Of a DNA stretch of 64,000 nucleotides, positions 59,495 through 63,487 are shown piece by piece (within the stretch, counting starts at the first letter, position 1; the number at the start of each line of letters is the position of its first letter). The notes beneath the pieces were generated by a model. It was not told the origin of the DNA and did not search any database. It saw only the letters and a list, made by a program, of their open reading frames with translations. The translations under genes and the position numbers were made by a program. Where the stretch lies: contig JAPVXR010000002.1 in the NCBI GenBank assembly GCA_027214385.1, positions 1 through 64,000 on the forward strand, written 5' to 3'. This stretch comes from Cryomorphaceae bacterium 1068 (GTDB taxonomy: Bacteria > Bacteroidota > Bacteroidia > Flavobacteriales_D > Cryomorphaceae).

Positions 59495-59502
59495 TAATTT
59501 TG
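59495..59502 (+). promoter_or_regulatory. -7 box of the MerR/B12 regulator promoter
   Basis: TAATTTTG fits TAnnTTTG. Its last three bases are shared with the left half of operator IR-A (59500-59531), so the regulator probably controls its own transcription. Confidence 0.6.
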
Positions 59503-59531
59503 TTTAATATCTATGAAGTATAATTGAACAA
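59500..59531. promoter_or_regulatory. Operator IR-A: TTGTTTAA-N16-TTGAACAA
   Basis: Left half TTGTTTAA at 59500-59507 and right half TTGAACAA at 59524-59531, one mismatch to the exact complement, 16-bp gap. It covers the -7 box and the expected transcription start of the regulator gene. A lone further half-site TTAAACAA lies at 59549-59556 in the leader. Confidence 0.6.
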
Positions 59532-59583
59532 TACTTCAAAGCTCAACGTTAAACAAAACAATACACTAGTTGAAGAATTTGTG

Positions 59584-60465
59584 ATGGGGAACTATTCAAT
59601 AAAAGATATAGAGCGTATTTCGGGCATAAAGGCCCACACCCTTCGCATTTGGGAGAAGAGGTACGGGATAATTGAACCCAGTCGCACCGAAACGAACATT
59701 CGTTACTATACGAATGAGGAGTTGAAGAAGATTCTCAACATTTCGATTCTCAATAATTACGGAATCAAGATTTCCAAAATTGTAGGCTTGTCGGGCGAAG
59801 AGCTACACAAGAAGGTATTGGAGATTTCTACTGAAGAGGTGGAAGAAAACCTCCAAATTGAGAGTCTGGTGATTGCGATGGTTGAAGTTGACGAGTCACG
59901 ATTTGAAAAGATTTTGGCCAACTGTACGCTCCGACTTGGTTTCGAGCAGACCCTCCTCAGTATCATCTATCCTTTTTTTAAGAAGGTCGGTGTGCTTTGG
60001 CAGGCTGGTGCGATTAATCCTGCACAAGAGCATTTTATAAGTAACCTCATTAGACAAAAGCTCATCGTAGCCATAGATAGTCAAGGAATGATGGTCAAAG
60101 AAGGAGCCTCTAAGTTTCTTCTCTTCTTGCCCGAAGGCGAGCTTCATGAATTGGGATTGCTCTTCTACAGCTATTTGATTCAGAAGTCAGGCCATAAGGT
60201 GATCTATTTGGGTCAGTCGGTACCACTGGATGACGTAGTAAAAGTGAATGAGCTAAATCCGGCAGATTATATCATCACGGCCACGCTCAGCATGAGCGCT
60301 CCTGAAAGTGTAAACAAACTTCTTCAAAAATTGCTTGATATATTTCCTTCCCAGAAGGTGATTTTAACCAACCGGTTCGATGATGAGAGCGAGATTCTCG
60401 AGAACGAAAGATTGGTTTTTAATCAATCTTTAAGTGAATTCAAGTCATTTTTAGACCTCCCTTAA
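59584..60465 (+). CDS. MerR-family regulator with cobalamin-binding domain (CarH/LitR-like)
   Basis: 293 residues from ATG 59584 (MGNYSIKDIERISGIKAHTLRIW); the frame is open to a TTG at 59524 that lies inside operator IR-A. Residues 4-72 form a MerR winged helix with HTLRIWEKRYGIIEPSRT and NIRYYTNEEL. The helical B12 cap has W139 and Glu149-His150 (W-x9-EH), and the Rossmann part carries GELHELG with His188 as the expected lower cobalt ligand. Family members bind adenosylcobalamin in the dark and release DNA on light. The position next to Trp139 is Gln140, not the His I recall in Thermus CarH. It lies upstream of an ECF sigma-crt operon. Confidence 0.88.
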   Translation: MGNYSIKDIERISGIKAHTLRIWEKRYGIIEPSRTETNIRYYTNEELKKILNISILNNYGIKISKIVGLSGEELHKKVLEISTEEVEENLQIESLVIAMVEVDESRFEKILANCTLRLGFEQTLLSIIYPFFKKVGVLWQAGAINPAQEHFISNLIRQKLIVAIDSQGMMVKEGASKFLLFLPEGELHELGLLFYSYLIQKSGHKVIYLGQSVPLDDVVKVNELNPADYIITATLSMSAPESVNKLLQKLLDIFPSQKVILTNRFDDESEILENERLVFNQSLSEFKSFLDLP

Positions 60466-60469
60466 GGTT

Positions 60470-60501
60470 TTGTTTAAGGATATTCGTGTATTCTTAAACA
60501 A
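60470..60501. promoter_or_regulatory. Operator IR-B: TTGTTTAA-N16-TTAAACAA
   Basis: Left half at 60470-60477, right half at 60494-60501, exact complements that extend to 9 bp (TTGTTTAAG / CTTAAACAA) around 14 bp. It begins 5 bp after the regulator stop. No T run follows, so a terminator role is unlikely. Confidence 0.6.
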
Positions 60502-60596
60502 GAAATTTACCTCTCATACATCAGATATTCAATAACTTAGCTATAACGTGTCTGTGCGTTTAGCAGCTTTTGGCTCAAATTAACACGTGCTAAAAC

Positions 60597-60626
60597 TTGG
60601 GTTTGTTTAACTAATCACTACATTTG
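60597..60626 (+). promoter_or_regulatory. Promoter of the sigma-crtI-crtB-idi operon
   Basis: -33 TTG at 60597-60599 and -7 TACATTTG at 60619-60626 with a 19-bp spacer, an ideal Bacteroidota promoter. The ATG at 60658 follows after about 25 transcribed bases. Operator IR-C (60603-60634) spans its spacer and -7 box. Confidence 0.75.
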
Positions 60627-60634
60627 TTAAACAA
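60603..60634. promoter_or_regulatory. Operator IR-C: TTGTTTAA-N16-TTAAACAA
   Basis: Left half at 60603-60610 and right half at 60627-60634 are exact complements and extend to 10-bp arms (TTTGTTTAAC / GTTAAACAAA). It lies across the promoter spacer and -7 box, the placement classical for MerR-type regulators, so it could mediate either repression or activation. Confidence 0.68.
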
Positions 60635-60657: not shown

Positions 60658-61164
60658 ATGAGCAATTATGATTTCGATAAGTTACTTATCACCTACCAGA
60701 AGTCCCTTAAGTCGTTTGCCTATGGATTTACAAATGATGACGAGGCTGCCAATGATTTACTACAAGAGACCTATTTAAAGGCCCTGACATATAGAGATAA
60801 ATTTGAGGCTCGTACCAATTTAAAAGCGTGGTTGTATACGATCATGCGAAATACGTTTATCAATAATTACCGCAAGGCGGTAAGAGCTAATACAATTATT
60901 GATAAAACAGATGAACAGTATTACATCAATACTGCTGCCACAACAAAGGGAGACACAAACCCTGAAAGTGTAATTTCCCATGATCAAATCAAAATGGAGA
61001 TTGACAGGCTTGATGATGAGTACCGCGTTCCATTCCAGATGTATAATCGAGGATTTAAGTACAAAGAGATCGCAGAAAAGTTGAATCTACCTATAGGGAC
61101 CATAAAAAGTCGTATATTTCTTGCTCGCAAGAAACTTATGCTTGCACTACCCGATTACCGTTGA
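60658..61164 (+). CDS. ECF-type RNA polymerase sigma factor
   Basis: 168 residues. Sigma-2 domain (about 8-75) with DDEAANDLLQETYLKAL and AWLYTIMRNTFINNYRK; sigma-4 domain (about 108-165) with YKEIAEKLNLPIGTIKSRIFLARKKL. No sigma-1.1 or sigma-3 domain. First gene of the operon and 5 bp upstream of crtI, so it likely works with the carotenoid genes. No anti-sigma gene flanks it, which suggests control at the level of its own transcription by the upstream B12 regulator, as in the litR-litS arrangement of Streptomyces. Confidence 0.9.
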   Translation: MSNYDFDKLLITYQKSLKSFAYGFTNDDEAANDLLQETYLKALTYRDKFEARTNLKAWLYTIMRNTFINNYRKAVRANTIIDKTDEQYYINTAATTKGDTNPESVISHDQIKMEIDRLDDEYRVPFQMYNRGFKYKEIAEKLNLPIGTIKSRIFLARKKLMLALPDYR

Positions 61165-61169
61165 TTTAA

Positions 61170-62642
61170 ATGAAACATAGAGTTATTGTCATTGGGTCCG
61201 GCTTCGCCGGACTTTCTGTTGCTACACATTTGGCTCACGAGGGTTATCATGTAGAAGTCTTTGAGAAGAATGATTCTCTAGGAGGCAGAGCAAGAAAATT
61301 TGAAAAAGACGGATTTACCTTTGATATGGGTCCGAGCTGGTATTGGATGCCTGATGTATTTGAGCAATACTTCAATAAGTTCGGAAAGTCTGTTAAAGAC
61401 TATTATAACTTGATTAGACTCGACCCTTCCTACCGAGTTTATTTTGCCAAGGACCATAAAATGGATCTTCCGGCGTCAATGGAGGGCATGTACGAGCTTT
61501 TTGAAAAGTATGAGCCAGGAAGTAGCAATAACCTGAAAAAATTTCTGGAAGAGGCGGCTTACAAATATGAAGTAGGGATAAACGACCTCGTTTACAAGCC
61601 CGGACAAAGCTTATTGGAATTTTTGGACATGCGCGTAATAAAAGGCGCGATGCGGTTGCAACTCCTGAACTCTCTCTCATCACACGTCAGGAAGTATTTC
61701 AAAAATCCTTACTTGATTGAATTGCTTGAGTTTCCAGTGTTGTTTCTAGGGGCTAAGGCTTCAAAAACTCCTGCGCTTTACAGCTTGATGAACTATGCTG
61801 ATATTGTCTTGGGCACTTGGTACCCCATGGGGGGTATGCATAAGATTGTCGAAGGAATGGTTTCACTGGCAGAGGAGAAGGGAGTGAAATTTCACACCTC
61901 AGCTAATGTCAATGAGATTCTTGTAGAAGGTGGAAAAGCAACAGGGATCAAATTGGAAAACGGCGCTGAATACAAATCTGACTTTGTGGTTTCAGGCGCA
62001 GACTACCACCATACGGAGACAAAAATGTTGAAGGAAAAGTCACGAAATTATTCTGACGATTATTGGGAAAAGCGCACAATGGCCCCTTCGAGCATTCTTT
62101 ATTATGTGGGTTTAAATAAGCGAATTGACGGAATCTTACACCACACATTGTTTTTCGATACAGACTTTGAGAAACACGCAGGACAGATTTATGATAAGCC
62201 CGAGTGGCCTGATGAACCATTGTTTTATGTTTCAGCTACATCAGTGACAGATTCTAGTGTTGCACCTGAAGGATGTGAAAATATTTTTATCTTGATTCCT
62301 ACTGCGCCCGGATTGATGGATGACCAGAAAATTAAGGACCAATATTTTGAAATGGTAATCAAGCGAATGGAGGAAACATTCGAACAAAATATTCGAGATC
62401 ATGTTATTTTCAGACGTGACTTCGCGTGTAGCGATTTTATGCACGACTACAACTCATTTAAAGGTAATGCCTACGGCCTTGCCAATACGTTAAATCAAAC
62501 AGCAGTGCTCAAACCTTCTTTGAAAAACAAGCGAGTGAAGAATCTTTACTATACGGGACAATTGACTGTGCCCGGACCGGGAGTTCCTCCTTCGCTTATT
62601 TCCGGAGCCGTGGTGGCGAAGGAGGTTATGAAAGCCAGCTAA
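61170..62642 (+). CDS. crtI: Phytoene desaturase CrtI
   Basis: 490 residues. FAD-dependent desaturase that converts phytoene towards lycopene. The dinucleotide motif VIVIGSGFAGLSVATHL is at residues 5-21, followed by EKNDSLGGRARKFEKDGFTFDMGPSWYWMP, the CrtI-type N-terminal signature. The C-terminal signature GQLTVPGPGVPPSLISGAVVA is intact. The number of desaturation steps cannot be read from sequence. Followed by crtB after 8 bp. Confidence 0.94.
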   Translation: MKHRVIVIGSGFAGLSVATHLAHEGYHVEVFEKNDSLGGRARKFEKDGFTFDMGPSWYWMPDVFEQYFNKFGKSVKDYYNLIRLDPSYRVYFAKDHKMDLPASMEGMYELFEKYEPGSSNNLKKFLEEAAYKYEVGINDLVYKPGQSLLEFLDMRVIKGAMRLQLLNSLSSHVRKYFKNPYLIELLEFPVLFLGAKASKTPALYSLMNYADIVLGTWYPMGGMHKIVEGMVSLAEEKGVKFHTSANVNEILVEGGKATGIKLENGAEYKSDFVVSGADYHHTETKMLKEKSRNYSDDYWEKRTMAPSSILYYVGLNKRIDGILHHTLFFDTDFEKHAGQIYDKPEWPDEPLFYVSATSVTDSSVAPEGCENIFILIPTAPGLMDDQKIKDQYFEMVIKRMEETFEQNIRDHVIFRRDFACSDFMHDYNSFKGNAYGLANTLNQTAVLKPSLKNKRVKNLYYTGQLTVPGPGVPPSLISGAVVAKEVMKAS

Positions 62643-62650
62643 ACACAACC

Positions 62651-63487
62651 ATGAAACAACTCTTTGACGACGTTTCCGTGCAGTGCAGTAAGCTTACCAC
62701 CAAGGCCTACAGCACCTCGTTTTCTTTGGGAATACGATTCTTGGCTGCCGATCTCCGCGACCCTATTTATTCCATTTATGGCTTCGTTAGGTTTGCTGAC
62801 GAGATCGTAGATACTTTCCATGGGTTTGACAAAAAAGATTTACTCGACAGATTTAAGGCAGACACTTACAGAGCAATAGAAGAAGGGATAAGTTTAAACC
62901 CTATTCTAAATAGCTTTCAGTATGTGGTAAATGAGTATAAGGTAGATCTTGACTGCATCGAGACTTTTCTGAAAAGTATGGAAATGGATCTTTACAAAGA
63001 TTCATACAGTAAAGATGAGTATGACAATTATATTCTTGGATCAGCCGAAGTTGTCGGCCTGATGTGTTTGAGCGTATTCCTGCGTGGCGATGAGAGGCGT
63101 TATGCAGAGCTTAAACCGTTTGCAATGAAATTGGGCTCTGCTTTTCAGAAGATCAATTTCCTTAGAGATCTTCATGCAGATTATAAAGCCCTTGGAAGAA
63201 CATACTTTCCAGGAGTAGATCTTCAGGAATTCGGAGAAGAAGAGCGAAAGGCTATTGAAAAAGATATTGAGGCCGACTTTGCGATGGGTTACGAAGGAAT
63301 AAAGATGCTTCCGAAAGATGCGCGTTTTGGGGTTTTTGTAGCTTATGTTTACTACTTCAAGCTCTTCAAAAAGATTCGAAAGAAAACGACAGAAGACATT
63401 TTATCCAGTAGGGTGAGAATAAGCGACAAACGCAAGTTTGCGTTATTTTTCAGCAGTTATGTGCGCCATAGTTTCAACTTGCTATAA
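62651..63487 (+). CDS. crtB: Phytoene synthase CrtB
   Basis: 278 residues. Condenses two geranylgeranyl diphosphates to phytoene. First Asp-rich motif RFADEIVDTF (Asp50, Asp54) and second NFLRDLHADYKALGRTYFP (Asp173, Asp177) are intact, as is STSFSLGIRFL near the start. No lycopene cyclase is fused; a cyclase may follow beyond the window. Its stop overlaps the next ATG by one base (TAATG). Confidence 0.94.
   Translation: MKQLFDDVSVQCSKLTTKAYSTSFSLGIRFLAADLRDPIYSIYGFVRFADEIVDTFHGFDKKDLLDRFKADTYRAIEEGISLNPILNSFQYVVNEYKVDLDCIETFLKSMEMDLYKDSYSKDEYDNYILGSAEVVGLMCLSVFLRGDERRYAELKPFAMKLGSAFQKINFLRDLHADYKALGRTYFPGVDLQEFGEEERKAIEKDIEADFAMGYEGIKMLPKDARFGVFVAYVYYFKLFKKIRKKTTEDILSSRVRISDKRKFALFFSSYVRHSFNLL

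Follow-up and report, generated by a model that had tools for sequence, protein, structure and literature searches.

Classical operators of MerR-type regulators (MerR, SoxR, BmrR) are pseudo-palindromes for two MerR-type domains; their dyads are much shorter than the one described here and lie between the -35 and -10 elements. The CarH operators of Thermus thermophilus and Bacillus megaterium are built from three or four tandem 11-bp direct repeats, nnnnTnnACAn (PMC9304148). For Myxococcus xanthus, inverted repeats were once proposed for CarA, but these are not conserved even among relatives, and the CarA/CarH operator is now read as a series of 11-bp repeats, DR1-dr2-DR3-DR4-dr5 (PMC9304148). 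The LitR-type operators of Pseudomonas PplR1 and PmlR2 have the form TRTACA-N12-TGTAYA, and PmlR2 senses light via a separate LOV protein (PMC9758184).

Here we describe a 32-bp inverted repeat, TTGTTYAA-N16-TTRAACAA, that is predicted, with a probability of about 0.85, to be the operator of the B12 photoreceptor CarH and to define a light-response regulon across the class Bacteroidia. The prediction draws on sequence features, namely the motif itself, a fixed N16 (rarely N17) spacing, a place over sigma-A promoters, conservation, joint occurrence with CarH and the genes that follow the repeat. As in T. thermophilus and B. megaterium, a B12-binding MerR-type protein, here a putative repressor, is encoded near light genes, the site holds a TnnACA core and it lies over promoter elements. 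Unlike in those species, the core occurs as one divergent inverted pair with half-sites 24 bp apart, the two operator regions of the window hold no tandem 11-bp direct repeats, and rhodopsin is among the targets. The Pseudomonas operators also combine repressors of the LitR/CarH family, two spaced TnnACA-type hexamers and light-inducible promoters, but their hexamers (TGTACA) are convergent and separated by N12 (18 bp centre to centre), whereas those seen here (TAAACA/TGTTTA) are divergent and 24 bp apart. With M. xanthus, the locus shares a light-controlled crt promoter. The pseudo-palindromic layout for two MerR-type domains is common to the classical MerR operators, from which the present repeat differs in its 32-bp length and its place over the -7 box and start region. 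A sequence-only reading of this DNA was aware of no published operator of such form; the exact form was indeed not found, but a LitR-family operator with two spaced hexamers of other sequence, spacing and orientation has been described. Full-text searches of openly available published articles found no Bacteroidota CarH operator and no regulator of a Bacteroidota rhodopsin. The CarH family is known, and the operator architecture and the link to rhodopsin appear to be new.

The window, which is the whole 64,000-nucleotide stretch analysed, contains the following features.

59500-59531, no strand: predicted operator 1, TTGTTTAA-N16-TTGAACAA; exact pattern, upstream of carH, overlapping the -7-like box TATAATTG
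59549-59556, plus strand: isolated half-site TTAAACAA, found in the sequence
59584-60465, plus strand: carH, encoding a MerR-type DNA-binding domain and two B12-binding domains; homologue of B12-dependent photoreceptor-repressors
60470-60501, no strand: predicted operator 2, TTGTTTAA-N16-TTAAACAA; exact, 133 bp centre to centre from operator 3
60597-60626, plus strand: sigma-A type promoter of the sigma-crt operon, TTG-N19-TACATTTG; good sigma-A match
60603-60634, no strand: predicted operator 3, TTGTTTAA-N16-TTAAACAA; exact, covering the spacer, -7 box and start region of the sigma-crt promoter
60658-61164, plus strand: ECF-type sigma factor gene, first in the light operon; Pfam Sigma70_r2/r4_2, NCBIfam sigma70-ECF
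61170-62642, plus strand: crtI, phytoene desaturase (CrtID type); NCBIfam NF058655, 767 bits, above cut-off
62651-63487, plus strand: crtB, phytoene synthase; Pfam SQS_PSY, E=5e-44

Beyond the window the operon continues with idi, QueD-like, folE, short-chain dehydrogenase, flavin reductase-like and photolyase-like genes, and farther downstream lie genes for a fasciclin protein, two more cryptochrome/photolyase-like proteins and a CrtZ-like protein (the last of these names read from translations).

The three copies that the sequence-only reading had placed at 59500, 60470 and 60603 all match TTGTTTAA-N16-TTRAACAA with 0 mismatches; the single mismatch assigned to the first is one between its arms (TTTAA versus TTGAA). 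Arms of 9-10 bp had been described: on the inner side every site gains one complementary base, giving 9-bp arms throughout, and two outward complementary bases are present in operator 3 only. With 10 left and 5 right half-sites in the window, about 0.0008 pairs would be expected at any one exact spacing against the three observed, which bears out the view that the identical spacing is unlikely to be due to chance. The isolated half-site at 59549-59556 is likewise real and has no partner with fewer than 2 mismatches at N16 or N17.

Promoters were called with the -7 consensus TAnnTTTG (PMC9723704). The -7 box of the sigma-crt promoter (60619-60626) falls inside operator 3, which was correctly said to cover spacer and -7 box of a good promoter, and this operator is conserved upstream of sigma orthologues. 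Operator 1 was said to overlap the -7 box of the regulator gene, and it does contain the -7-like box (59519-59526) of the carH promoter TTG-N16-TATAATTG, which is weaker, being one base off consensus and having a short spacer. Operator 2 begins 4 bp after the carH stop codon, in agreement with its placement just past the gene. It overlaps no evident promoter, yet it is kept, with one mismatch and at 132-133 bp from operator 3, in two other members of the family (L025, L028). A location after a stop codon could suggest a role of the repeats in RNA, as hairpins or terminators. We consider this scarcely credible, given that the half-site letters are ~100% conserved, which is more than base pairing alone needs, that A+T-rich arms would enclose a loop of 14-16 nt, and that the remaining sites coincide with promoters, ahead of where transcription starts.

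The whole 4.32-Mb genome contains four exact copies, the three in the window and one on another contig, 47 bp upstream of a proteorhodopsin gene. When all spacers from 8 to 24 were counted genome-wide, each of the 4 exact pairs had N16, and the reversed control gave 0. Matches with 2 mismatches occur at roughly 15 places compared to 9 with the reversed pattern and are mostly background. By alignment, the rhodopsin behind the fourth copy has D85, T89 and E96, which we take to be the DTE motif of a proton pump, and M93 at what is presumably its green-tuning position. Divergent from this gene, and sharing the operator region, is a gene for a secreted 454-residue PAP2/haloperoxidase-like protein (L014 8624-9988). 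A one-mismatch copy lies 34 bp upstream of a gene for a 124-residue membrane protein (L005 1501-1532; G000:C6:56167), which has no match in Pfam or NCBIfam and is a candidate light-response protein. The fasciclin and cryptochrome genes of this genome have no operator in front at up to 2 mismatches.

Conservation was analysed in 111 unique CarH loci of the order by counting the pattern TTGTTYAA-N16-TTRAACAA at all spacers from 8 to 24. Near these carH genes N16 accounted for 50 exact and 60 one-mismatch copies, most of them (41 exact, 43 one-mismatch) within 400 bp downstream of carH and the others (9 exact, 17 one-mismatch) upstream. N17, a minor variant of the N16 operator, occurred in 2 exact and 2-4 one-mismatch copies, and no remaining spacer gave an exact site or more than two one-mismatch sites per region. 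In the coding sequences of the same loci (97 kb), N16 sites with 0 or 1 mismatches are absent. The finding was replicated in other families of the class, where 29 CarH loci had 12 exact and 13 one-mismatch copies downstream. Absence of the repeat upstream of orthologous operons had been named as one observation that would refute the reading of it as a regulator site; most carH-sigma-crt and carH-crt loci of the order have the repeat, and it is found in other orders of the class as well. A genome-wide histogram of 14 genomes, which were picked for having sites, showed 37 pairs at N16, 3 at N17 and 7 at all other spacers, compared to 6 in the reversed control.

The same geometry emerged when the published core TnnACA alone was used as query in the 111 loci. 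Divergent pairs at 24 bp numbered 129, against 2.1 expected from shuffles, while 11-bp direct repeats were near background (8 versus 3.9 expected). At 18 bp there were 4 convergent pairs versus 1.4 expected and 1 divergent pair versus 1.8. The symmetrised operator profile approximates TTTGTTTAAYnwTT...AAwnRTTAAACAAA, and the core positions within TTRAACAA (T-RA-ACA) are about 98-100% conserved. Tandem operator pairs are frequent (L041, L049, L157, L167, L170, L195, L200, L282 and others), with centre-to-centre distances of mostly 53 bp and further ones of 42-44, 64, 34-35 and 61 bp, which suggests cooperative binding. Helical phasing was considered for the 42-44, 53 and 64 bp distances and dropped, because distances of 34-35 and 61 bp are found as well and the sites share ancestry.

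The product of carH shows, in order, the Pfam domains MerR_1, B12-binding_2 and B12-binding (the last below gathering score). Its best NCBIfam match is the CarH equivalog model, at 105 bits compared to a 400-bit cut-off, and its best solved relative is T. thermophilus CarH (TtCarH; 5c8d), with an E value of about 1e-20 over residues 2-236. The AdoCbl motifs W-x9-EH and E/DxH, the latter with the lower-ligand His177, are present. Among 111 orthologues of the order, and in TtCarH numbering, W131 is found in 110, E141 in 111, H142 in 107 and H177 in 111. By these sequence criteria the regulator is a CarH homologue of the CarH/LitR family of B12-dependent photoreceptors. The equivalent of His132, by comparison, is Leu or Gln in most orthologues and His in 2 of 111, and the dimer salt bridge is absent, the equivalents of Arg176 and Asp201 being mostly W/I/L and mostly S, respectively. 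Upper ligation by His132 is reported to be needed for light-driven dissociation of TtCarH, and loss of His132 prevents it (PMC10442372). Many, but not all, myxobacterial CarH proteins keep such a His, and many also a salt-bridge pair (PMC9304148). As His132 is not universal in the family, its absence limits the mechanism and not the membership in CarH/LitR. The photo-switch of Thermus CarH is therefore not simply transferable, and on the evidence of these residues that of the present clade must differ in detail from it. A different CarH oligomer would fit the different operator.

Site and CarH track each other across genomes. The exact site is present in 95 of 150 genomes of the order sample (reversed control, 12) and in 88 of 197 of the class sample (reversed control, 8). 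Among the former it occurs in 93 of 132 genomes with CarH and in 2 of 18 without detected CarH (Fisher p = 1.7e-6), and among the latter in 81 of 125 and 7 of 72 (p = 5.5e-15); these co-occurrence counts follow correction of three fragmentary CarH genes and, having no phylogenetic correction, are inflated by kinship. Even within one genus (g29), two genomes (G103, G117) lack both CarH and site and five (G048, G101, G113, G115, G125) have both. Two genomes with rhodopsin and without CarH (G049, G148) have no operator at their rhodopsin promoters. Three apparently CarH-less genomes with a site (G070, G130, G144) have fragmentary or divergent CarH, and in a fourth (G081) the site falls inside a coding sequence. 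Joint loss of the whole light regulon could partly cause the co-occurrence.

The repeat might be bound by another dimeric regulator of light genes, with CarH merely a neighbour, and carH does stand apart from the operator-bearing operons in some genera (g12, for example). This is improbable, since presence of the site follows that of CarH down to the level of genus g29, the CarH core TnnACA lies inside the half-site, and no other regulator gene was seen recurring beside the sites. The proposal of a single binding protein, most simply the MerR/B12 protein encoded between the copies, is instead supported by the co-variation with CarH, the core in the half-site and the predicted CarH homology with its AdoCbl motifs.

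The sequence-only reading did not include the minor N17 variant, and it had no view of the rhodopsin and other light genes that the same operator precedes. Genes behind exact sites encode ECF sigma factors, CrtI, rhodopsin, cryptochrome/photolyase, multi-domain fasciclin proteins, glutathione peroxidase, SOUL heme protein, ABA4-like protein, HMG-CoA reductase, TonB-receptor-like protein and DUF2805; carH itself also has sites close upstream. Because the signature recurs beside genes for the B12 light sensor, carotenoid synthesis, DNA photorepair and a proton pump, it is very likely the light-response switch of that sensor. An ECF sigma gene is often first downstream, and the repeat could on that account be a promoter element of the adjacent sigma factor. 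We find this very hard to reconcile with a symmetric motif that is used on both strands, is also present where a carH-crtI locus has no sigma gene beside it (for example L176, L225, L231, L233) and lies at distances from 1 to >100 bp from start codons.

Upstream regions of 70 rhodopsin genes of the order contained N16 sites in 7 cases exactly, 24 at up to 1 mismatch and 35 at up to 2, compared to 0, 0.05 and 0.25 in shuffled regions, and neighbouring spacers were near zero; about half of the sampled rhodopsin genes have no recognisable site. In 80 named rhodopsin loci, at up to 2 mismatches, N16 was found 28 times, N17 16 times and other spacers about 0-6 times. Strains with exact N16 sites are Flexithrix dorotheae DSM 6795, Marivirga arenosa and Belliella calami, and those with exact N17 sites are Hymenobacter amundsenii, H. 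artigasi, Algoriphagus antarcticus and Thermaurantimonas aggregans, among others. CarH was present in 17 of 17 named strains tested, many of which also have the operator at the carH locus.

The -7 box TAnnTTTG takes two fixed places, at operator position -4 or 17. Since the operator thus overlaps the -7 box or sits just downstream of it, we infer dark repression: CarH probably represses in the dark and is released by light. In the dark, AdoCbl-bound CarH oligomers would occupy the TnnACA half-sites, with one DNA-binding domain at each, and obstruct RNA polymerase. Light would cleave the Co-C bond and remove CarH from DNA, so that the sigma-crt operon and the rhodopsin gene would be transcribed together, with a concerted rise of retinal precursor, proton pump and photoprotection. 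Operator 1 would provide self-regulation of carH, and operator 2 may be an auxiliary site that strengthens repression. Binding as an activator or dual regulator, as in classical MerR systems, would suit the MerR-type DNA-binding domain and the absence of a sigma-A -7 box from the operator at most rhodopsin sites. It is nonetheless unlikely, as the crt-operon operator overlaps or directly follows the -7 box, which is a blocking position, and characterised CarH proteins repress (PMC9304148).

More tentatively, and with slightly less than even confidence, we suggest that Bacteroidia CarH may be a structurally distinct branch that binds a single divergent inverted repeat as a two-fold symmetric oligomer, switches in light without His132 and Arg176-Asp201, and is the missing regulator coupling proteorhodopsin, retinal-precursor synthesis and DNA photorepair to light. 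Among flavobacteria, proteorhodopsin is light-induced in Dokdonia MED134 and was reported to be constitutive in PRO95 (PMC3380642, PMC3587595). A conserved operator before rhodopsin, carotenoid and photorepair genes, together with a matching B12 photoreceptor gene, points to a specific mechanism and allows the regulon to be traced in genome sequences; if true, this would be the regulator that links proteorhodopsin to light in one major rhodopsin-bearing bacterial group. Rhodopsin phototrophy would then hinge on vitamin B12, the supply of which varies in the sea. For CarH biology, the clade would add a new operator geometry in proteins that lack the residues credited with driving the light switch, and for optogenetics a compact 32-bp operator.

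Secreted fasciclin-domain genes have the operator close upstream in several families (L022, L059, L072, L082, L244 and probably L235, L239, L242). Downstream of the window, a fasciclin gene lies between photolyase-like genes (L016 11235-14081).
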